The notes under the pieces: model-generated | Database searches by the model: none | What the model was told of the DNA's origin: nothing | What the model saw: only the letters and a program-made list of their open reading frames with translations | From: Apiotrichum sp. Y4204 | Lineage: Eukaryota > Basidiomycota > Tremellomycetes > Trichosporonales > Trichosporonaceae | Reading direction: 5' to 3' | Length of the DNA stretch: 64,000 nucleotides | Assembly: GCA_025531455.1 (NCBI GenBank) | Contig: JAMYHL010000003.1 | Coordinates: forward strand, 434,001-498,000 | Position numbers and translations under genes: made by a program | Shown here: piece by piece, positions 25,973 to 62,134 of the stretch | How positions within the stretch are numbered: the first letter of the stretch is position 1 | How the letters are laid out: each line of letters opens with the position of its first letter

Positions 25973-27847
25973 TCACAGCGGCGCACGGTGGGCCTTGAGC
26001 ATCTGGTTCATGGTGGTGGTCGCATTTGTCCCGTTACCGCCCATCCCGCCGTCAAACGACTCGACGCGGCCGAGCATCCACTCGAGGTTGAGCAGGGCCG
26101 CGCGCGGCTGGTACTCGGGGACCATGTGGCCGGCCATGAAGGTCTGGACCCACATGAGGCCGCGCTCGTGGTGGTACGTGCCCATGTGGCCCTGCGGTCC
26201 GTTGAGGCCCTCCATCTCGTTGGCCTTGAAGACGGGAGTCCACTCAATGTCGGGCTCGGAAACGATAAACGGCGTGCTCGGGGCGGACTGGAAGCCGAGC
26301 TGCCCGTTCCACGTCATGTTCTGGATCGCGAGCAGCGTGCCGTTCGTGATGATAATATAGTCAAAGTCGCCGTTTGCCACGAGCACGCGGTTCGTCTTTT
26401 CGATGACCTTGGGAAGGACGTGCTGGATCGGGTCGGGTGAGTTGTCGCCGTTGAACTGCGGACCGCCCTTTCCGAGGAACACGGGCTCGACGGAGCACAG
26501 CGCCCACTTGAGGTCGGGCGCGTGCAGTGCCTTCTTGACGTCCTTGCGGTCAAAGTACGGCGGGTTTCCCGGGTCAGAGTAGATGAAGGCACCGGGGAAG
26601 CCGAGCGAGTCGGAGGGGAGGGGGCACATCATGTTCTGTGGTGAGCGACGAGCTCATCAGAGTTTACTCACGACCTCGTAAGGGTTGAAGCAGGGGTTGA
26701 CGCTGAAGGCAACGGTGTAGATGTCGCTGAAAAGGTCGCACGACTTGTTGTTGGCGTCCATCTTGGGGTTGCTGGGGTCAAAGCTAGTCGGGGGCTGGAC
26801 GCCGGAGGGCGGGAAGACGAGGTACTTGTCAAGGAAGTCTGCATAGCCGCACGACTTGTGGCGACCCCGGATGTCCTCCATGTACGACTCGTTGAAGCCG
26901 AAGAGATTCATGTTGGCCTCGACGAACGGCACGGCGGGAATCTCTTCCTGTACAGTGTTGTACTCGCCAATGCAAGGATCGTAGACGATGATGCCTGCGG
27001 TTAGGGCACGCGCATTGGGGACAGCTCACCATTGAGATCAAAGTGTTCCGTGTTGTTGGCATCCACCATCGCCGCACCAATGTACGGCACATAGCGGCCG
27101 GCGTACGACTCGCCGGTGATGTAGATCTTGTAGTTCTTGACGCCAAACGCCTCCTGCCAGCGTTTGAACCACTTGAGGAACGGGGCGGTGATGTCGTCCT
27201 CCGAGGTGGCATACGGCTTGCCGACCGAGAAGCCCGTGCCAATCGGCTGGTCGACCCTGGGAGGTGAGCATTCCCCAGAGTCAGTTACTCACCAGAGCAT
27301 GTTGGTCCGCGTCGACCACGCGTACGGGTTGGACTTTGGCGCAAACGTGCCGGGCATCCAGCTGATGGGCCCGTTCTCCTGCCAGAACGCGTTGGCCGAG
27401 CTGCATCCCGGTCCACCATTCAGCCAGATTGTAATCTCCTCGACCGGCTCGCCGCCGCTGCGGGGCGCAAAGTAGAAGAAGAGCGAGCCTTCCGTCTTGT
27501 TTTTCGGGTCCACCTCAAGGCTGCCAGAGTACAGCTCGCCAAAGTTGAAGTTGACCTCGGGGAGCTTCTTGACGAGGAATTCTGCCGTCAGCCGCAGCTC
27601 TCCTGGTGCGACTCGACTCACTCTCAGTCTTCTTGTTTCGGAACTGGTACTTTGTCTTCTCGGGTTTGGACTCGTTCTTGTCGTTCCACCGGGCGGCAAG
27701 CTGGTGCTTTTCCTCAAAGGCGCGACGCTCGCGAAGGGCTTCCTCGCTGCGGGCACGGAAGCCAGGGGGCTGGCGCATCGGGCCTGGCTGCGCGGAGCCG
27801 AGACCCGCCAGCGCGAGGACGGTGAGGGCAGTGAGAGGGGCCCACAT
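25973..27847 (-). CDS. Secreted serine carboxypeptidase (peptidase family S10)
   Basis: Five exons. A signal peptide MWAPLTALTVLALAGLGSAQ is followed by a basic propeptide-like segment. Family S10 motifs are in order: the oxyanion segment WLNGGPGCSS, VDQPIGTGFS, the nucleophile Ser in TGESYAGRYVPYIG, the catalytic Asp in NGDFDYII, and the catalytic His in AGHMVPEYQP. Several N-x-T/S sites (NKTEG, NESY, NNTEH, NGTL, NMTW, NGTNATTT) predict N-glycosylation. No transmembrane tail is present, so it is likely secreted or vacuolar. It should remove C-terminal residues from peptides at acidic pH. Frames joined at all four introns without irregularities. Confidence 0.93.
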
Positions 27848-48369: not shown

Positions 48370-50170
48370 GCCAAAACCGTATCGAGAGTGTAAGAGTAGA
48401 GTCTCATTATAGAAGCAATAATCGGCAACTACGCCTGCCACATGTAGAATGCATCCCTAGGACAACTTTGCCCAAGAGCCAGTGGAGCGAGCTCAGCATG
48501 CTTTACATTGCCTACACCGAGAAAGAGCCAGGTGGGGTTCAACAAGCGCAACATTGGTTACACCTTCAAGCTGTAACTGAATGACAAAACCGACAAAAGA
48601 CAGGGGAGCGAGCCTGATGGCGTGACAATGCTAACACAGTCCGACTTTGTGAGCAATGCTGATAGTAGCAGCCCGGCGATACTAACAGCAGCGCAGGTCA
48701 CAGTTACTGAATACTCTGCGTAGAGTTACTGGCTCTCACCCAAAGAAACAGTGATTGGTACTCACCCAAGCCCAACCTTCGCCAGAGCTTCATGCCTCCC
48801 TATCTTCATCACCATATCATCACTTAGCAACACACATGTAATCTGGCACGGTCATTACCGTTCAACAACGCACAGGCAGAAGGCAGAAGGACTCAACACC
48901 GATGATGGTTGCAAGCTCTTCACTCACACATCACACAGCATTTGCCCCATTACCAGCTTGCGAAGCCTCGCCTACAAGCATCGTCGATCCAAATAGACAC
49001 ATCAGTTCCGAGATATCGAGATCCACACTGCGAGATCACGCGCCGCGCGCCGCGAGCGACACCCGCGGATTGCGGGATGCAAGTTGTGTTGCATCCGCAC
49101 GTGTGGCTGTGCCACGACTGAGGACCGGGGTAGGGACGTGTGAGGTGCCAGGGTGTGGACGACGTCGGCCATCCGGATGATGCACATAGTGACCTTATAG
49201 AGTACAGTATGGTGAGATGGGACGAGGTGAGATGGGACGAGGTGGGCCATGCGTAGGTGCTGTACCTGTCGTGCTAAATGGGGCCTGCAGCCTGCAGCTT
49301 GCAACTTGGTCGGATGTGGGATGCATGGGTGCCATGCTGTCGACCCAAGGACAGTCATAGGACAGTGCCACGACAGTCCCAGCGGCGACCATCCACTTGT
49401 CCGCGTCCACGCATGTCCTCATCGCGCCCAGCGACGGCCATCACCTGACTGACTCCTGTGTAAACCGACTTGCATGCATTTTGTATCTGAACAGTGCCCG
49501 CCGCCGCCCGCGGACCGGCGAGCGAGGAACAGACACCGAGCTACAGAGTATACAGCATTTGGCGGCACACGCGAGGTGAGCTGCGAGATTGCTTGCTGGT
49601 CAGGTGGAAAAGTAGCCGAGGCCGAGAACGCCCCACACATGGCATGCATGCGCTATACCGCACTGCCGCGCTGCACACGCTGCCGCCATTGTTATTGTCT
49701 CAGGTCCAGAGCCCGTTGTCTCCTGCTGTATATCCTTTCGACGGCTGTACCGCTGCTCGGGCAATGTTCCGGCCGCGGCAGCATCGGCGCCGGACATGCC
49801 GGCCCCGGAACCCATCTGGGCCCAGCACAGAGCTAGCCCACCAACTGATACTCACCTGATTGAGCATTGTCGCGCTCTAATCTCGGCGGTGAGTATTCCG
49901 AGCGCATGCATGCAGAGCAGAGCAGAGAGATGCTGTTGCCAGGCGAGAGATGGGAGATGCGAACAGCCGACAGCGTGCCGGACAACGGCAGGTGACCTTG
50001 CATATATGCGATTGTGGGCTCGCTTCATGTCCCGCATTGCATCTCGCTCGACCTTCTGTTTCCAGGCCTCCAGACATCAACACACGCAGCAGTAGCGACA
50101 GCAACGACGACACATAACAGCCCAGCAACCCCACTACCTCTCCCCATTCCCACCTCACTCCCCTCCCACG
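48370..50170. other. 1.8-kb intergenic region
   Basis: Between the lectin gene and pobA. GGTGAGATGGGACGA is tandemly duplicated at 49211-49240. A TATA-like CATATATG at about 50001 lies 170 bp before the pobA ATG. No coding frame supported. Confidence 0.45.
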
Positions 50171-51358
50171 ATGACGGCCCCGACCAAGACGACGGTAGGC
50201 ATTATCGGTGCTGGGCCGGCCGGCCTCCTCCTCGCGCGGCTCCTGCACAACGCGGGGATTGACAGCGTCGTCCTCGAGGCCAAGGATCGGGCGTACGTCG
50301 AGCACCGCCAGCGGGCCGGTATTCTCGAGCAGGGCAGTGTCGACGTGCTGCGCGAGGCGGGCGCCAATTTCCGAATGGACAAGGAGGGTCTCGTGCACGA
50401 CGGCGTCGAGCTGCTGTTCAACAAGAAGCGGCACCCGATCCATTTCCCCTCGCTGACTGGTGGGCGGACGGTCATGATCTACGCGCAGACCGAGGTGTGC
50501 AAGGACCTCATCGAGCTGCAGATCAAGGAAGGCGGGCCGCTTCTCTTCGAGTCCCCCGTCGCCGGCATCGAGGGCGCCGACACGGACCACCCCAAGATCC
50601 GGTACACCCCCAAAGGCGGCTCTGAGACCGTCCTCGAGTGCGACTATGTGATTGCGTGTGATGGATTCTGGGGTGTCGGCCGCCCCACCATTCCCGAGAA
50701 GCTCTCCAAGTCGTACGAGCGCACGTATCCGTTCTCGTGGCTTGGTATTCTTGCGGATGTGCCCCCCGCCAACGAGGAGCTCATCTACGCGCGCCACGAG
50801 CGCGGCTTTGCGCTGCTTTCGATGCGCTCCCCCACCGTCTCCCGCTACTACCTCCAGGTACCTGCCGGGACGGACGCCAAAGACTGGAGCGACGAGGAGA
50901 TCTGGGACGAGCTCGAGCGGCGCTGCGAGACGACCGACGGCTTCAAGGTCGCCCGCGGCCCGATCACGCAGAAGAGCGTCACCCCGATGCGCTCGTTTGT
51001 CCATGAGCCGATGCAGTACGGTCGCGTGTATCTCGCCGGCGACGCGGCGCACATTGTACCCCCCACAGGCGCCAAGGGACTCAACCTGGCGTTTGGCGAC
51101 GTCGTGACCATTGCCCGCGCGCTCAAGCACAAGGTCAAGACGGGCAGCGACGAGCTCCTGGACGCGTACTCGAACACATGCCTCACGCGCGTGTGGCAGG
51201 CCGAGCGCTTCTCGTACGACATGACAAACCTCCTCCACACCAACCCCGAGAGCACGCCATTCGAGGACAAGCTCCAGATTGCCCGCCTCACACGCATCGT
51301 GTCCAACCCCCAGGCCGAGGCAGACATGGCCCTCGCATACACCGGCTTCCCCCTGTAA
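50171..51358 (+). CDS. pobA: 4-hydroxybenzoate 3-monooxygenase (p-hydroxybenzoate hydroxylase)
   Basis: Intronless, 395 aa, almost the exact length of bacterial PobA (394 aa in Pseudomonas). The FAD dinucleotide motif GIIGAGPAG is at residues ~10-18. RQRAGILEQGSVDVLREAG, ACDGFWGVGR (DG motif, FAD/NADPH), YPFSWLGILAD, the substrate-side RYYLQVP and GDAAHIVPPTGAKGLNLA (GD motif) align block by block with bacterial PobA. It hydroxylates 4-hydroxybenzoate to protocatechuate with NAD(P)H and O2. It is cytosolic, without targeting signal. Lack of introns in an intron-rich genome and the bacterial-type sequence suggest acquisition from bacteria. It is about 2 kb from a salicylate-hydroxylase-type gene and 7 kb from an aromatic aldehyde dehydrogenase. 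Confidence 0.95.
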   Translation: MTAPTKTTVGIIGAGPAGLLLARLLHNAGIDSVVLEAKDRAYVEHRQRAGILEQGSVDVLREAGANFRMDKEGLVHDGVELLFNKKRHPIHFPSLTGGRTVMIYAQTEVCKDLIELQIKEGGPLLFESPVAGIEGADTDHPKIRYTPKGGSETVLECDYVIACDGFWGVGRPTIPEKLSKSYERTYPFSWLGILADVPPANEELIYARHERGFALLSMRSPTVSRYYLQVPAGTDAKDWSDEEIWDELERRCETTDGFKVARGPITQKSVTPMRSFVHEPMQYGRVYLAGDAAHIVPPTGAKGLNLAFGDVVTIARALKHKVKTGSDELLDAYSNTCLTRVWQAERFSYDMTNLLHTNPESTPFEDKLQIARLTRIVSNPQAEADMALAYTGFPL

Positions 51359-51462
51359 TCCCAGTTGTAACTTTTATTCGGGTGTTAGGATGCATCGAGA
51401 CGTACAGAGTATAGCATGCGAGAGTACAGATCAGTGGGGCTACAGAATATGCTACAGATCAA

Positions 51463-52509
51463 TCACAGTTCAAGGTCGCGCAACAGCGACCGAGAATGTA
51501 TGTGTTCTATCGTGACGAGCTGGAAGGTCGTGCTCCCCACCCGCGCAGCGTACTCGTCGTCAGTGAGGGCCGTGAACGGCAGGGAGTCGGGTTCTGCCTC
51601 TACTCCATCGAACGCAAAGTGGCGCCGCCGCTCTCTAACTCTGGCAGCGAGGTACGCGCAGACGTCCCCACCAGCTCTCCACAGGCCATCACGGTACGCG
51701 GGCGAGCGGGCGGCGAGGACATGGCCGATGTCTTCCGCGCCAACGAGGGTTAATTCCGCCTTGGAGACAGCCATCGCGTCTACCAAACTCGCGAGCTCGT
51801 CGTCCGCCTCGGGCGCCTCGCTGATCGCCCGCGCATTGGCAAGTACCGCGTGCTGCTCGTGGGAGAAGGACCAGTAGTGGAATACAACGACTATCGACGC
51901 GGTATCAGGCAGACGCGGACGCAGCGGCGCGCGGTACGGCATGATGTAATGCCCCGAGTGGAGAGTAATGTGGACAATGACTGGCAACGCCGCGGCGCAG
52001 AGATGCAGCGCGAGCGGGGCGAAGGCCGGACTCGGGCATTCCGGAAGGTGCGTGAACCCCACGACAGGAGACGGGGGGTACTCTGGCTGCGCGGTGTGCA
52101 CGTCAGTGAGGCGCGTAAGGCGGGGCGTCAGCGGCGCGAGAAAATGAGAAACATCAGCGTGTCCGGGTACATCGCGTTCGGCGGGCTCGAGCGGCACCGA
52201 GATGGTGAGTACCCCAACGGCAGTGAAGCGGATGGACAGCGGCAGCGGGATGGGCGTCTCCCCGATCCATGCAGTCAGACTGCCTTGTATGCGGGACACG
52301 GGCGCGCCGCGGGGGTACAGCGAGCGGACGTCGAGCTCGAAGCCGCCGAGCCGCGTGAAGCGGCGAATGGATAGCGCGAGGTTGGCGGTGAGGACTTGTT
52401 CGGCGCGTTTCTTCACGTCGCGGGAGACGAGCCGGAGAACCAAGAGGGCTGACGGAGCGGAGGACGCGATGATCGCGTCCAGGAGGTGCGGATAGGCGGT
52501 GGCGTCCAT
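51463..52509 (-). CDS. F-box-like protein of a Trichosporonales-type family
   Basis: Intronless, 348 aa. The N-terminus (YPHLLDAIIASSAPSALLVLRLVSRDVKKRAEQVL) has the spacing of an F-box-like helical motif: PHLLD-I, a hydrophobic helix, then LR-SRxxxxxA. The rest is a beta-rich domain without obvious repeats, signal peptide or membrane span. From memory, many intronless paralogs with this N-terminal pattern exist in Trichosporonales genomes; I cannot check copy number here. If the F-box is real it could recruit an SCF ubiquitin ligase. Its tail-to-tail position next to pobA is probably incidental. Confidence 0.7.
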   Translation of the reverse strand: MDATAYPHLLDAIIASSAPSALLVLRLVSRDVKKRAEQVLTANLALSIRRFTRLGGFELDVRSLYPRGAPVSRIQGSLTAWIGETPIPLPLSIRFTAVGVLTISVPLEPAERDVPGHADVSHFLAPLTPRLTRLTDVHTAQPEYPPSPVVGFTHLPECPSPAFAPLALHLCAAALPVIVHITLHSGHYIMPYRAPLRPRLPDTASIVVVFHYWSFSHEQHAVLANARAISEAPEADDELASLVDAMAVSKAELTLVGAEDIGHVLAARSPAYRDGLWRAGGDVCAYLAARVRERRRHFAFDGVEAEPDSLPFTALTDDEYAARVGSTTFQLVTIEHIHSRSLLRDLEL

Positions 52510-53166
52510 CGCGGGTTGGGGGGACCGGGCGACATGGTGCTGTCTTGTACATGTGCATTATAGAATACAAAGAAAAAGATGGAGTTCTGGGACGATATCG
52601 TCCTCGCGTGCTCGGATAAGACGAGGATGTGACGGACGACGACACCCAGGGACGAGGGACGAGGGACAGGCGATGATGGCCTGCGCTGATTGAGTTTTGT
52701 GGCGATGATGCCGTGATAACGCTGTCCGCTGCCAGTTGCCCCTTTGGCATTGTGATACTGCGACAGTAGGACATTGGGACACTATGTGCGTGTGCTCATT
52801 GGGAGAGATCATAAGAGATCCGATCTAGGATCTCGGCATGGGTGGTGCAGGAGGAGTCTGGAGGACGAGGTTGCAGGACCGTTGCAGATTGGAACATGTT
52901 CGATCATAAAGGCAACGGGTGGCACACTTTGTCTGTACGTGTGTGATTTTCCTCTCGTCTCCTGTCTGGTCTGTTCTCATGTACACACAGTCGCGAGCGC
53001 GCGTGCGATGGATCTCCTTGTGCTCTCCTTATGGCACTCTCTGCTCCTTCTCTCGCATGCTAGTATTGCATACAATCCAATGCCCAACGAACAGAAACTA
53101 CGATGAATGATACTGATCCAGGTTATACACAACGTCCTCCCGCGCTCTATCACACATTCGGCTCTC
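52510..53166. other. Intergenic region, 0.66 kb
   Basis: Promoter of the F-box-like gene and 3' flank of the salicylate-hydroxylase gene. Only short unrelated open frames. Confidence 0.4.
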
Positions 53167-54657
53167 TCACATGCGGGCAGCGGGGGCCTTGGCCTTCTCT
53201 TCGCGGAAAAGGGCGTCGAACGCCTTCTCCGACTCCTTGGTCACGTCGTACAGGAAGAGCTTGTCGTGGACTTCGCGCGAGATCATCTTGTCGGGGTTGG
53301 CGCCCTCGTTGGCGGACTGGAACGCGGCGAGGACAGACTCACGGTCCTCGGTGAGCAGACCCTTGCTGTTCTCCGCGGCGGTCATGACGGCCCAGTCGGT
53401 GCGCGGCTTGCGGATGCGCTGGTACACCTCGAGAGCGGCGTGAATGTCGTCCTTGGAGGTGATCTTGGAGAGCACGACGCCGAGGCACGCGGCATCCTCA
53501 ATGGCCTGCGCGGCGCCCTGGGCAATGTGCGGGAGCGTGGGGTGGCATGCGTCGCCGACGAGCGCGGCGTTGCCGTCGACCCACTGGGGGAGGGGCTTGT
53601 GCACGCGGAGCTTCCACTCGAGGACCTCGCCCTCGGGGACGAGGTTGAGGAGCTTCTGGACACGCGGGCAAAAGTCGTGGAACGTCTTGAGCATCTCGTC
53701 CTTGGATCCCACGGCGGTCCACGTGTCGGCCTGGACGAAGCGGCGGTCAGGCTGCGTCGTGCTCATGTTGAACAGGTCGCCCTTCTCGATCGGGTACGCG
53801 ATAATGTGGCGGCGCGCGCCGACCCAACGGTAGCTCTGCGTGCCGGTGAAGAAGGGGACGAGCTCGGGGTCCTCGTTGATCGCGGAGCGGCGCACCATGA
53901 TACGGTACGCGGCCTGGCCCGTGTCCTCGACCTCGTCCTTGATTCCCGTGCGGGCATACATTGCCTCGCGGGCCTTGGACTTGACGCCGTCGGCAGCAAT
54001 GATCACGTCCGCCTGGATCCACTGCTTCTCGTCCGTTTTCCGGTCCTTGACCTGGAACTGCGTCTTGTCAAAGTCGTACTCGGTGATAAAGTTGCCAAGG
54101 TGCAGCTTGACGACGCCCGAGCGCTCAGCACCCACAATGAGGCACTTCTGCAGCGCCGCACGGTGCACAGTCGTAAATGGGTATCCGTAGTTCTCCTTCA
54201 TGTAGCCCTTGTACGACACACTTGTGAGGATCTTGTCGGTAGCACAGTCTGAGTGAGTCAGTTCTGGTTCTGGTTACTGTCCAGTGGAGCCTCACGCCCA
54301 AGCTCGCTGGCCTCCCGCGGGCTACTCACCAAGCACGTTGGCAGTGGTAATGTCCACGCCCTCGCCGGCACACACGTCGAGCACGCCCCAGTTGTCGAGC
54401 ACACGCGCAAGGTTGGGCGGGATGTTGATACCCGCGCCGACCTCGCCAATCTCGGGGGCGGCCTCCCACACGTGGATGTTCGTGAAGCCCTGCTTGGCGA
54501 ACGCGACCGCCGAGCCCATGCCGCCCATTCTGCGGGTTAGCAAGGTTTCTCGTGATGGTGACTGCTGCTCCGGGCGGTGGGACCACCAACATCCCGCCTA
54601 CTCTACTCACCCGGCACCGATAATGTGGATTGCGAGATCAGGAAGAGGAGGCGCCAT
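53167..54657 (-). CDS. FAD-dependent salicylate hydroxylase-type monooxygenase
   Basis: Three exons; start MAPPLPDLAIHIIGAG with the first intron splitting the GxGxxG motif (GAGMGGMGSA). About 445 aa. VWEAAPEIGEVGAGINIPPN (ribose-binding Glu and AGI), IIAADGVKSKAR (DG motif) and AALVGDACHPTLPHIAQGAAQAIEDAA (GD motif) define a class A flavoprotein monooxygenase. HPTLPHIAQGAAQAIEDA is typical of salicylate 1-monooxygenases and related 3-/6-hydroxybenzoate hydroxylases. Most likely it converts salicylate to catechol with NADH, O2 and CO2 release, in the cytosol. The neighbouring pobA and aldehyde dehydrogenase support aromatic catabolism. Exact substrate remains inferred. The C-terminus is KAPAARM, not a peroxisomal signal. 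Confidence 0.88.
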
Positions 54658-57060: not shown

Positions 57061-57497
57061 TGCGTCGCTGGTGCTCGGGTGTAGCTTTGGGTCTACAGTA
57101 CATGTGCGGCCAGTCGTTCCTTAGCTGTAACGGCATCGGAAATAAACCCAAGATCCCAAGCGACCGTCGAGCGGACCCATGGGTCGAGTCACAATGACAT
57201 GGACGGTTGGTCACCTCACCGACGAGATGGTTCGTAGGAGCTTCCGACAATGGGTGTGCTGGAAGGTTTCGGCGAGGTGGACTATAGCGCTGCCTGTAGC
57301 TCTCCAAGGCTGGTGCTCCAAGCTGGGGCGAACGAGGTCCAATCTATAAGAGCTATACTCCAACGACCGAGGAGAGATAAAAGGGGTGCCATACGACCAC
57401 TCATCCCCACAAGCCGCTCTCTCCTTTCTACCCAGTCGCTAGCAATCCTAGCATCTCGCGAGCTCGATACTTCACATACACACTCCACAACCTCACA

Positions 57498-57856
57498 ATG
57501 AAGCTCGCCCTCATCCTCACATCCCTCATCGCTCTGGCTGTTGCCGCTCCTGCTCGTACGTTTGTCTTTAGCAGTCGCACCTCGCCCCTCCTATCCAGCC
57601 ACTGACACCAGACTACGAGGAGCGCGACGCCCTCGCTGAGGCTGACCCCCAACATGGCTTCGGCGGCGGCGGCTGCGGTGGCGGCCACAACCCCGTGTGC
57701 TGGAAGCGCGAGGCTGAAGCCGAGCCCGAGCCGGTTCCCGAGCCCGAGCCCGAGCCCGAGGCTGAGGCTGAGGCTGACCCCCAACATGGCTTCGGCGGCG
57801 GCGGCTGCGGTGGCGGCCACAACCCCGTGTGCTGGAAGCGCGAGGCTGAAGCCTGA
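57498..57856 (+). CDS. Secreted repeat-peptide precursor with Kex2/Ste13-type processing sites (alpha-factor-like)
   Basis: Exons 57498-57555 and 57612-57856 join through a 56-nt intron (GTACGT...ACCAG) to give 100 aa. Residues 1-17 are a signal peptide (MKLALILTSLIALAVAA). The mature part contains two identical peptides QHGFGGGGCGGGHNPVCW, each followed by Lys-Arg. The spacer from the first KR to the second peptide reads in perfect dipeptide register EA EA EP EP VP EP EP EP EA EA EA DP, all X-Ala or X-Pro. The first peptide is preceded by DA LA EA DP. That is the substrate pattern of Kex2 endoprotease plus Ste13-type dipeptidyl aminopeptidase. Each peptide has two Cys before a C-terminal Trp, as in several ascomycete pheromones. 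A TATA-like TATAAG lies at 57345. A signalling peptide is inferred; an antimicrobial or metal-binding peptide is the alternative. Confidence 0.85.
57641..57853 (+). repeat. Two identical 81-nt units, 132-nt period, within the peptide gene
   Basis: 57641-57721 and 57773-57853 are identical base for base, from GCTGACCCC to GAAGCC. Perfect nucleotide identity, including synonymous positions, indicates a recent duplication or ongoing gene conversion. The spacer between them is a degenerate GAGCCC/GAGGCT hexamer run. Confidence 0.9.
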
Positions 57857-57949
57857 GCCGGTTCTCGGGCGCGAAGCTGAACATGAGCCAGACACTGAAA
57901 GGCTGGACTCGGCTTCCGCGGCGGTGGCTGCAGCCGCGTGTGCTGGTAA
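57857..57949 (+). pseudogene. Decayed third peptide copy downstream of the stop
   Basis: Starting at 57911, in the same reading frame as the CDS, the codons read G-F-R-G-G-G-C-S-R-V-C-W followed by TAA (57947-57949). This keeps GF-x-GGGC, VCW and the Trp-stop ending. It lies 123 nt after the equivalent point of copy 2 (period 132). Between lie TGA codons at 57854, 57878, 57884 and 57896. Shifting by one base at 57854 opens a spacer-like frame (EPVLGREAEHEPD). A 75-nt GTGTGC...AAAG intron (57827-57901), phase 0 at both ends, could alternatively bring it into the product. Confidence 0.6.
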
Positions 57950-58297: not shown

Positions 58298-59970
58298 TCA
58301 CAGCTCAAAAATGTTGAGCGGAAGCGCGTGCGGGTCTTTGACGACCTCGATCGAGCGCGTCTGTCATCAGAATCCCACCTTTCCCCTCCCCTTGCCGGTA
58401 TCTTACCTGGGTAAACGACCGCAGCCCCTCGACGCCATTAAACCTCCCCCAGCCCGACGACTTCCACCCACCATGGGGCACGGTCGGCGGGTCCGCGGGC
58501 GTGGGCGCATTGACGTGCACTGCGCCCGCCTCGATCCGCTTCGCGACGGCCGTCGCGCGCTCCACGTCCCGACCCCATACAGCGGCAGCGAGACCATACG
58601 GCGTGTCATTCGCGATGCGGACCATCTCGTCAATGAGCGCCGCCTCGTCCGCGTCCGGAACGGAGACAATCGCCGCCAGCGGGCCGAACGACTCATCGCC
58701 GTAGAGCTGCATGTCGGGGGTGACGTCCGCGAGCATCGTGGGAGTCACAAAAGCGTCGGCGTCCTTCCGCAGCCCGAGGACGGGGGACGCGCCGGCGCCA
58801 ACGGCCTGGGCGATGAGAGAGCGCACGCGCTCCCCCGAGGCGGGGGTGAAGAGCGCGCGGGGCTGTGCCTCGACGGCTTCCCATGCGCGCGCGAGGGCGG
58901 CAAGCAGTGCGTCCCGCTTCGAGGCGGGGACGAGGATGCGTTCCGTCGACATGCAGATCTGGCCGGCGTTCATGAACGCGCCGAAAATGACTGGTGTTAA
59001 TGGGGAAAATGGGGTTAGGCTTACGGTGGGAGGCGGCCGTGTCGAGGTCCGCGTCGGGGAGGAGGATGACTGGCGCTTTTCCCCCGAGCTCCATCAGTGT
59101 CGGCTTGAGGTGTTTTCCCGCAAGAGACGCAATGATGGACCCGACGCGCGTGCTGCCCGTAAAATTGACGTGCCGCACGCGCGTATCTGATACGAGGAGG
59201 GTGGTGAGCTCGGCCGCGTCGGCGGGACACACGTGCAGCACGCAGAGCGCGTCGCGCGGCAGGCCGGCGGCATACAGGAGCTCGGCCCAGAGTGCCTGCG
59301 ACCCCGGGGTGGTTTCCGAGGTCTTGAGCACGACCGTGTTGCCCGCCAGGAGGGGGGTCGCGATCGCGCGCACGGTCAGGACGTGGACCTGGAGTCAGAT
59401 GAGGCAGACGGAAAGTGCGGAATAGATGGAAAAGAGTTCGCCACTCATCCGACGTCATAGACTGAACTCACAGCATTCCACGCGGCAATAGCAAGACAGA
59501 CTCCATACGGCTCGCGGCCGATCGTTACAGTACCTAGCGTCAGTCATAACTCCCATTGACCACGCACCATGCTCGAGCGCAACCTCCTCCTCTTTCAGCG
59601 CCGCCTCCGCACTTCCAGCCAGGGTACGCAGTGCGCCCGTCGCCATGCCGATCTGCGCAACGGACCACCACTTTGTGACGCTGGTTTCCGCCATGTTGCT
59701 CTCGACAAGCCTAGCCGCCCACCCCGAGGATTCATCAGAGAGGATCTCCGCCGCACGCGAGAACACTGCTGCGCGCTCCGCGAGCGGCGTAGATTTCCAC
59801 TTTTGCAGGCCGGAAGAGAGAGAGTCCAGCGCGGATGTGATGTCTGCGGGGGTGCTCCGTTCCACGCTGTGCACGACGCCCTTTGACGGGTGGGAAATGG
59901 CGAATGTCGCGGGGGACGCCGACGGGCGCGGGACGAGGTTGCGCACGAGCGCGGAGAGGGTGCGGCCCAT
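58298..59970 (-). CDS. Aromatic aldehyde dehydrogenase (vanillin/salicylaldehyde dehydrogenase type)
   Basis: A spliced gene, about 500 aa, start MGRTLSALVRNLVP. ALDH landmarks: AAWNAVHVLTVRAIATPLLAGNT, NFTGSTRVG (cofactor), MELGGKAP with the catalytic Glu, and the catalytic Cys in FMNAGQICMSTERI. ESFGPLAAIV and GWKSSGWGRFNG follow. A last short exon ends HALPLNIFEL. The NAGQICMSTER form is the one seen in vanillin and salicylaldehyde dehydrogenases rather than in acetaldehyde or betaine-aldehyde enzymes. It would oxidise an aromatic aldehyde to the acid with NAD(P), feeding the hydroxylases at 50-55 kb. The N-terminal MGRTLSALVRNLVPR is basic and amphipathic, so a mitochondrial signal cannot be excluded. 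Confidence 0.9.
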
Positions 59971-62134
59971 GCTGTGGGGTGTTGGCTGTGTGAGCTGTTG
60001 GGTTTCTTTGGAGGCTGGTGGTGGTGAGGGCGGTGGTTGAGATATATATATTTGTATCTCGGTTTATGCGGGGTGTAAACCCGGAGTCCGGCTAGCCCAC
60101 CTCGGCGTATGGACGAGTGTATGAGTAAGTTCGGGCTTCCAGCAGTGGTCAGTGCAGTCGTCACTGTCAGTTAGCGCGAGTGCAGCATGTGGTGGGCGGT
60201 ATGCGGGAGATCGATTAGGATGCAGTAGGAGTGTAGTGCGGTGAGTGATTGGGTTCAAGATGAGATGGCAAGAGGAGATGGGAGATAAGAACGGAGTCCG
60301 CCGTCATCAAGGCGAAACCCTCAGGGACCGGCACAGGCGCAAAGCGGACGACGGCGCGGCTCAAACTCATGACTCCAAGGCCGCAAAGGTCAGTAAATGT
60401 GTCGATGCTATAAGCACACGCCCCACCCTAGCTCGAACTCGAGCCAGAACAATCAGACTCGACTGGTCTGAGACCAGCTGTCCCCCACTGTCCGTGCTCG
60501 ACAGGTGCCTGATTATAGAGTCAGTCCCGCATGTGTGCGCGCCATTGGTCAGTGAGAGGTCACCGCAGCTCACTCAGCTCACTCCGTCGCACTCCACCTC
60601 ACAGCACCAGCATGATCCAGCATGACCCCCACCCCAAGCAGCGTGGCGAGCACGCGGCCGCAATCAGCAACAGCCAACCAACACCCCGTCTCGGCGCCAT
60701 GTATGGTCTCGGGGCGCGGCCGCGCCGCCCAGCGGGTGTCAGTTATGCTACGTGACTCGCGACTGACGGCGCGGTGACCGGTGGCGCGTGATCAATCCCC
60801 CGGTTAACTGGTTACTGGGCGGCACTCTCGGCAATTGGCGTGCGTGCGTCGCTGCCTACGCCACTGATGTGTGACCTCCCATGGCCCAATGAACCACCGC
60901 GCGCCGCGACACCTCGTGTGTCGCCATGTGCGGCGAGTTTGAGCACGCCATCAGACATGGCCGCCACAGCCCCAGGGCACGCTGACAAACGACGCGCGTG
61001 CCATGCCAAGGCAGCAAGGCAGGCAAGGAAATGCATTCCGGTAGTAGTGCGTGGATATCGACTTTCCAGCGATTTCCGCCACCGCACACAGTTCCCCGCA
61101 GGCCGCAGGGATGCTCCCCACCGGACCGCGGAAATGAGAATCCCGGCCCGATCACGACTCTGGGACTCTGGACTCGAGACTCACGACTCACCCCCTCCCC
61201 GCACACACCGATTGCGATCGCGGCGGACGGACAGTGACTACCGGGGCGGGCTAGCGCGCGGCGCGCGGCGGGCCGCGGGGCGCCATGCATGTCCGGGGAT
61301 GGGCTGTGGACCTTTAGGTCTGTGGGTCTGTGGGCCTGTGGGCACGGAGGGAGAGAAGGGGAGTCACGGGTCCCGGGTCCTTGGGTTACGGACTTGGGCG
61401 AGGTGTCTCGGTTGTGGTCCCTGGGCTCGGGCTTCCTATCTACAGTTTCGCGTGCCGTGTTGTGCAGAGTCGGGTTGGGAGAAGTGAGGGATTAAGTCAC
61501 AGAAGAAGATATGAGAAGCAACGAGCAGAGCAGAGCAGATCACAAGAGACCGAGGAGTACCCGATTTGTGGTGGTGGCGAGGGCCCCGCCGGTTGTCCTT
61601 CCGTTGCCGGCTAGCGCACGGGGAACGCTCGGACCGAGAGGAAGTGCGGCATGAGGATGAGGGTGATGATGATGATGATGATGATGGCGACGATGACAAG
61701 ATTTCATGTGTATCATTCTGCGGGGAGATGGGAAGGATCGAGGAGGGCTGGATAATTGCAATGAATGTCATGTTGTTTGTAATTTGACCGACAGGATTGT
61801 GTCTTTCATCTCTCCATCGCCATCTCTCCATCTTCTTCCTCTTTCCATCCATCTCTCTCTTGTCTCTCTCTCTCTTTCTCACCATCACCCCCGTCGTCGC
61901 CGTCGACACCGACACCCCCCTCATCCTCATCCTCCTCTCCATCCACGTCCCCACACATCTCCGACCTCTCCTCGGCATACCTCCATCCCCTCTCCAAAAC
62001 AAAACCTTAGTGCTCTTCCGTCGTCATCGCACCGCATCGCGCACCGAAGCGACTCACCGACATCATCCTCGCCATCACATTCCGTCTCACCACCACCCAC
62101 TCGACTTTACTCGCCTCGCGCATCCTCCGCGCAC
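59971..62134. other. 2.2-kb divergent promoter region
   Basis: Between the aldehyde dehydrogenase and the right-hand Zn2Cys6 gene. Contains GACTCTGG/GACTC low-complexity sequence near 61140-61190, an (TGA)n microsatellite at 61664-61687 and strongly C/T-rich tracts at 61800-62000 leading into the factor gene. The open frames there are translations of these tracts. Confidence 0.45.
60042..60051 (-). promoter_or_regulatory. TATA-rich element of the aldehyde dehydrogenase promoter
   Basis: An alternating TATATATAT run about 72 bp upstream of the ATG at 59970, a suitable distance for a TATA box in this compact genome. Confidence 0.45.

Follow-up and report, generated by a model that had tools for sequence, protein, structure and literature searches.

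What is a gene with the layout of an ascomycete alpha-pheromone precursor doing in the genome of an apparent basidiomycete, where mating pheromones are reported to be of the CaaX type only (PMC6339444)? The gene lies in a stretch of 64,000 nucleotides (JAMYHL010000003.1, positions 434,001 to 498,000; "the window" refers to this whole stretch) on contig C106 of an assembly of 48.9 Mb and 182 contigs. We report that it encodes two identical 18-residue cores, each followed by Lys-Arg (KR), and that it is a member of a family with at least five loci in the same genome, three of which are present as open homeolog pairs. By its layout it belongs to a published class, the alpha-pheromone-like Kex2-processed repeat proteins (KEPs; Kex2-processed proteins) of Basidiomycota. 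New here are the members themselves, the multigene family, the evidence from selection and from the dipeptide register, and the finding that cores carry either two cysteines or none.

An earlier note, made from the letters of the window, had proposed a two-exon gene at 57498-57856 with two identical cores and KR after each; direct reading reproduced the coordinates exactly and gave AAG CGC as the codons of both KR sites (Table 1). The start of the precursor is hydrophobic and ends in AVAAPA (signal peptide assigned by eye, without a predictor), the intron interrupts a His codon, and the protein ends in KREAEA with no CaaX box. The note had also described spacers of X-Ala and X-Pro dipeptides in phase up to the Gln of the core. 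This holds for all 12 dipeptides after KR and for all four before core 1, except that the site preceding the latter (HYEER) is Glu-Arg and not dibasic. The core has two Cys and a Cys-Trp end (C-x7-C-W), as in the Sordariomycete type.

Contig C6 carries a homeolog of the gene, in a region that is colinear with that of the window gene and 88% identical to it over 10.4 kb. The homeolog has a 56-bp intron with the same splice sites, KR after each core and dipeptides in the same phase, while its cores have no Gln-His (16 residues versus 18) and its spacers comprise 4 and 10 dipeptides versus 4 and 12. The core-like relic GFRGGGCSRVCW downstream of the window gene is missing from C6 although the flanking sequence is retained there. 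Since splice sites, KR sites and phase are kept despite the divergence of the DNA, and since it recurs at other loci whose DNA is different, the architecture reflects more than chance.

The codon comparison shows that the window gene and its C6 homeolog are under purifying selection: the 92 aligned codons hold 13 differences, 8 synonymous and 5 non-synonymous, with a ratio of non-synonymous to synonymous proportions (pN/pS) of 0.20 (Fisher p 0.004). For the locus C pair (C152 versus C20) pN/pS was 0.14 (p 3e-6), these p-values being optimistic because the codons of repeats are not independent; the locus B pair gave 0.39 on a poor alignment. Moreover, the repeats of one copy resemble each other and differ from those of its homeolog (either both have Gln-His or both lack it; 4/4 have GGK, 5/5 have SGK), as expected of arrays making one product. 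An antisense gene was considered and rejected: the 193-aa antisense open reading frame (ORF) over the locus is unconserved (3 synonymous versus 10 non-synonymous differences, compared with 8 versus 5 in the sense frame), and a shorter antisense frame, also at 8 to 5, shares the sense wobble position and has internal stops, and is regarded as a mirror of the repeats.

To define the family, the genome was searched in six frames with the window protein as query (7 matches on four contigs) and with the pattern Cys-Trp-Lys-Arg-[Asp/Glu], which gave 29 matches, 21 inside the named loci and 8 elsewhere, against 10 for the reversed control pattern. Seven of the 8 outside matches were inspected and lie in frames of 11 to 95 aa with no array. 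A stricter pattern (Trp-Lys-Arg followed by two acidic X-Ala/X-Pro dipeptides) matched 16 times, always in named loci, with 2 matches for its reversed control. The loci are designated A (the window gene and its homeolog) to E (Table 1). Neither the Cys-Trp-Lys-Arg pattern search nor the family match search of the genome gave a second copy of locus D, and the copy of locus E on C1 (L072; G000 C1:855801-856800) has one repeat and an in-frame stop, by which we judge that one member was lost in one subgenome. A phase-1 intron right after ...AAPA is common to loci A and C (in C, to the C152 and C20 genes) and speaks for shared ancestry; B, D and E read as intronless. TATA-like boxes are present at -113 (B), -108 (C) and -118 (intact E), with no match to such patterns at D or at the degenerate E. 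No 9-mer was common to three loci upstream of the five, and a single 8-mer (with its complement) was; we propose no shared promoter motif other than the TATA-like boxes. Two further weak family matches were seen on C57 and C117.

Relatives in public sequences were sought by profile and by protein search. The family profile, run over the 8000 best-sharing candidates, retrieved 12 proteins, and we accepted P0001, P0007 and P0008 as relatives; amino-acid composition by itself can raise such profile and protein matches. A protein search with the C94 copy of locus B as query found no protein, and another gave 6 hits with E no higher than 1, among which P0001 alone was accepted; P0002 (E 1.1e-6), a Tyr-rich protein, was rejected. 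P0001 and P0007, both on public contigs, have QGFGGCGGWGGGPQCW and QSGGFGGCGGWGSPACW, respectively, twice each with phased spacers, and differ from the window gene in having monobasic or KK sites in places. P0008 is Vanrija albida Q8F55_000669, with three cores ending in APRW and KR or RR sites; it differs from the family in having no cysteines, and its pairwise similarity to a B copy is weak (E 1e-4). By reading, P0010, P0011 and P0013 are apparent ascomycete-type alpha-pheromone precursors with GQPC or GQGCW cores (WGCGQRGQPCGK or GCGARGQGCWK repeats). The other profile-search proteins appear unrelated.

The dipeptide register supports maturation. Spacers of unequal length comprise 4 and 12 dipeptides in A, 3 and 6 in C, and 3 and 4 in E, and, read in phase, they lead to one and the same core residue in the repeats of a given protein; in D a single core follows 4 dipeptides, and P0001 (5 and 5) and P0007 (6 and 6) agree in register when counted from monobasic sites. 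Phase is thus kept while spacer length varies, which is what a dipeptidyl aminopeptidase (DPAP) requires, and processing of the Kex2/DPAP type is likely. The corresponding enzyme genes are present. The note had asked for KEX2 and STE13 homologs, and these are not absent: kexin P-domain matches were found on C114 and C149, and DPPIV-type genes (DPPIV_N) on C153 and C57, in frames of 778 aa, the C153 copy with a GWSYGG motif and, by eye, an N-terminal membrane anchor. S10 carboxypeptidases gave 18 exon matches in the genome, with no Kex1 assignment among them.

The two cysteines apparently come and go together, as a functional pair would. Among 14 distinct cores (nine from this genome, a single one from each of P0001 and P0007, and three from P0008) ten have two Cys, four have none and zero have one; the count does not include the degenerate C1 copy and P0009, of doubtful kinship, both without Cys, nor the window relic and the published QSWGGCGGRGTPCW, with two Cys each. 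The number of residues between the two Cys is 7 in A, 4 in loci B, C and D (C-x4-C-W), 8 in P0001 and 7 in P0007; E has no Cys. This all-or-none pairing makes a disulphide in the core plausible.

Several observations weigh against this picture of a matured, disulphide-capable repeat peptide. In the B arrays, trimming from KR would halt at VVER, AVEER or (I/V)LEER, before the core, and reaching the core would take another cleavage, behind the Arg of (V/L)-x-E-R; similarly, the KR-released stretch before core 2 of P0001 ends early at VVEG, as does the stretch after RR in P0007. An extended Kex2 motif in which Glu at P2 is tolerated and an aliphatic P4 preferred has been described (PMC8528282); the HYEER site before core 1 of the window gene has no aliphatic P4 (Tyr, and Asn in the homeolog). 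Since this EER site is non-dibasic, classical N-terminal release applies to core 2 only. Locus D, having a single core, encodes no repeat protein, and the decay of the E copy on C1 means that not every member is indispensable. Each of the two kexin matches, read over the P-domain, spans one stop codon, probably at an intron. The alpha-pheromone of Fusarium oxysporum is inactive when oxidised, a disulphide abolishing its activity (PMC7289986). Finally, the STE2 profile (PF02116) gave no match in the genome at E up to 1; no control genome matched either, while the same type of search found STE3. For Ste2, the receptor search suggested in the note thus returned a negative lacking a positive control.

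What mating system does the host have? STE3 was found on C13 and C51 by profile search, and about 5.5 kb from STE3, on the minus strand of C13 (L074, C13:121680-126000), there is a small frame, MDAFTATTIEAPRNYEDDRLYDYGSCTIA (MDAFTA...CTIA), with a CaaX box. We take it to be a typical tremellomycete CaaX precursor, and it is probably the mating pheromone gene; this assignment rests on reading one small ORF, the sole one to pass the filter among the 4 loci examined. A looser CaaX filter returned another ORF, in both copies, which we do not believe. The PF08015 profile search of the genome, which had no positive control, found no CaaX precursor and left the C13 frame undetected. One pheromone gene near STE3 has been described in each Trichosporonales MAT allele (Sun et al. 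2019, PMC6730849). The note had assumed a basidiomycete, and STE3 on two contigs, the CaaX frame on one of these and the profile match in Vanrija albida bear this out and speak against an ascomycete. Because of the STE3/CaaX arrangement, the Vanrija albida match and a published Trichosporon oleaginosus peptide (see below), the host is probably a tremellomycete of the Trichosporonales. The C6 region is a second copy of that around the window gene, and the DPPIV-type gene, STE3 and the kexin P-domain each occur on two contigs, which fits a genome that is hybrid or otherwise doubled; hybrids are known among Trichosporonales (PMC6730849; see also PMC6642101).

The closest published counterpart is a KEP of Trichosporon (Cutaneotrichosporon) oleaginosus with QSWGGCGGRGTPCW and STE13 signatures, which was noted to resemble Sordariomycete alpha-pheromones and for which a function other than sex was suggested (Le Marquer et al. 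2019, PMC6339444). Like the window gene it has KR sites, STE13-type spacers and a Gly-rich core with two Cys and a Cys-Trp end; it differs, as compared without the full precursor, in its core and spacing (C-x6-C) and in being one reported protein versus at least five loci here. The earlier note had not recognised the peptide: the kind was in print in 2019 (PMC6339444). When five distinct cores were looked up in open-licence papers, QSWGGCGGRGTPCW alone was found, in PMC6339444, and no other published work on such peptides in Trichosporon was found among these papers; neither the cores of this genome nor the multigene family turned up in them. According to Umemura (2020), strains of Tremellomycetes have 1.00 KEPs on average, and Yarrowia and Cutaneotrichosporon have one KEP type in common (PMC7329392). 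With ascomycete alpha-pheromone precursors, such as that for F. oxysporum WCTWRGQPCW, the family shares a signal-like start, tandem cores, KR, X-Ala/X-Pro spacers, Trp, two Cys and the Cys-Trp end, and the GGQPCW end of the locus D core is like that of this peptide (C-x6-C-W). It differs in its longer Gly-rich cores, in Cys spacings of 4 or 7 (6 in F. oxysporum) and in a host with STE3 and CaaX and no STE2 detected. The Agaricomycete KEPs of Pleurotus and Lentinula, whose peptides have been detected, are likewise of basidiomycete origin with KEX2 sites, X-Ala/X-Pro motifs and a Trp end (-AADW); they come from mushrooms and differ in sequence, and the examples quoted are short and cysteine-free (PMC9769878).

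We favour, with somewhat better than even confidence, the view that the window gene gives a secreted, extracellular self-signal other than a mating pheromone, sensed at the surface or after import. In this scheme the secreted precursor would be cut after Lys-Arg by kexin (Kex2), a Ste13-type dipeptidyl aminopeptidase would trim the phased dipeptides from the N-terminus up to Gln, and a carboxypeptidase would trim the C-terminus. The product would be an 18-residue peptide with a Cys-Trp end, or one of 16 residues without Gln-His from the homeolog. It would act in density, development or partner sensing, presumably through a dedicated receptor, beside and not replacing the CaaX/STE3 system. A quorum-signal role has been reported for the F. 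oxysporum alpha-pheromone (PMC7289986). As proposed in the note, the role appears to be other than that of a canonical mating pheromone: given STE3 and the nearby CaaX frame, a mating role is not expected, and the idea that the window peptide is the mating pheromone of the species, being unneeded, was rejected.

Cryptococcus neoformans, also a tremellomycete, provides a version of the self-signal proposal, overlapping it in probability, in which the peptide is imported and sensed inside the cell. Its quorum signal Qsp1 is a secreted peptide, reportedly short, Gly-containing and with a Trp end, and this likeness, together with the STE2 result above, points in that direction. The maturation of Qsp1 by Pqp1 is extracellular and its uptake goes through Opt1, unlike the Kex2/DPAP route proposed here, and the available descriptions mention no KR or X-Ala/X-Pro layout for it; we regard intracellular sensing as rather unlikely.

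Less likely again is a secreted peptide directed against other organisms, as an antimicrobial or in competition. The peptides are small, of secreted type, Gly-rich and Cys-containing, the cores differ among loci, and an effector role was named as a non-exclusive option by Le Marquer et al. (PMC6339444). For the same authors, however, a STE13 signature marks candidate hormones (PMC6339444); moreover, Lys and Arg are absent from the window core, which has two His, and core A is constrained between homeologs except for Gln-His. The note had also raised metal binding. This is weakened by the homeolog cores, where the N-terminal Gln-His is absent and hence no constant feature; the remaining His and Cys may still bind metal.

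That the peptides coat hyphae or cells we consider improbable. The Kex2-processed Rep1 peptides of Ustilago form fibrils on the hyphal surface (PMC8528282) and aggregation of Gly-rich cores is conceivable, but Rep1 is described as having no STE13 signature (PMC6339444), which in the window family is phased and conserved. A dikaritin-type ribosomal peptide cyclised by UstYa-like enzymes, to which the signal, repeats and KR would also correspond, is very improbable in view of the window core without Tyr, of matched neighbours that are aldehyde dehydrogenase and FAD-binding enzymes, and of a genome search for UstYa (PF11807), run without a positive control, that gave no match.

Table 1. Coordinates of the window gene and its parts, loci of the family and neighbouring genes (positions are those of the window unless a contig is given)
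Feature	Location	Strand	Basis or remark
Two-exon gene, product of 100 aa MKLALILTSLIALAVAAPAHYEERDALAEADPQHGFGGGGCGGGHNPVCWKREAEAEPEPVPEPEPEPEAEAEADPQHGFGGGGCGGGHNPVCWKREAEA	57498-57856	+	direct reading
Exon 1: ATG, signal-like MKLALILTSLIALAVAAPA, first base of split codon	57498..57555	+	direct reading
Intron, 56 bp, GTACGT...ACCAG, phase 1	57556..57611	+	length and splice sites identical in C6 homeolog
Exon 2: pro-region, two cores, spacers, TGA stop (57854-57856)	57612..57856	+	direct reading
N-terminal spacer DA-LA-EA-DP, 4 X-Ala/X-Pro dipeptides, after Glu-Glu-Arg	57626..57649	+	register count
Core peptide 1 QHGFGGGGCGGGHNPVCW, 18 residues	57650..57703	+	direct reading
Lys-Arg (Kex2-type) site 1, AAG CGC	57704..57709	+	direct reading
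Spacer, 12 in-phase dipeptides EA EA EP EP VP EP EP EP EA EA EA DP	57710..57781	+	register count
Core peptide 2, identical to core 1 QHGFGGGGCGGGHNPVCW	57782..57835	+	direct reading
Lys-Arg site 2, AAG CGC, then tail EAEA	57836..57841	+	direct reading
TATA-like element GATAAAAGG, 122 bp upstream of ATG	57376..57384	+	9-mer recurs at -114 in C6 homeolog
Core-like relic of third repeat GFRGGGCSRVCW, downstream of stop	57911..57946	+	stop codons between gene and relic
Locus A	C106 (window) and C6		homeolog pair
Locus B	C139 and C94		C139: three NSGWGQGGCGGHACW and two DSWGRGPCSGEACW; C94: three DSWGRGPCSGEACW and one DSWGRPPCSGEACW
Locus C	C152 and C20		C152: five QWGAGTCSGKACW; C20: at least four QWGAGTCGGKACW, up to contig end
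Locus D	C102 near 478 kb		one RWGGGCGGQPCW
Locus E	C102 near 537 kb		three QWGGFGGGQRDPQW; degenerate copy on C1
Aldehyde dehydrogenase adjoining peptide gene	58308-60063	-	Pfam
Two FAD-binding monooxygenase-like frames, upstream of peptide gene	50096-54273		Pfam
S10 serine carboxypeptidase gene, matched part	26075-27540	-	about 30 kb from peptide gene; copy on C6
Long open frame, 1131 aa	222-3614	-	no Pfam match
Long open frame, 1050 aa	18132-21281	+	no Pfam match

Of 27 ORFs listed for the window 10 were scanned against Pfam; five matched (FAD_binding_3 twice, Aldedh twice and Fungal_trans) and five had no match. The last exon of the S10 carboxypeptidase in the window weakly matches yeast KEX1 in PDB (E 1e-4), and since no membrane anchor is seen by eye at the end of the protein it is probably not the Golgi Kex1. 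No receptor was found beside the family loci among the 9 of 26 listed ORFs that were scanned, all of ordinary families (one below the cut-off); receptors with many introns could escape such a scan.

Taken further, and only tentatively, Trichosporonales might use multi-channel signalling, with about five alpha-pheromone-like peptides matured by Kex2 and Ste13 and read by non-STE2 receptors beside the CaaX/STE3 system; if this is true, the alpha-type signal would predate ascomycete mating or would have been reinvented apart from it. The exact peptides are now named for synthesis and testing, and there is a receptor to seek. A conserved alpha-type family in a genome with STE3 and an apparent CaaX pheromone provides a concrete case for use of the alpha-type route in other signalling by yeasts of this group.
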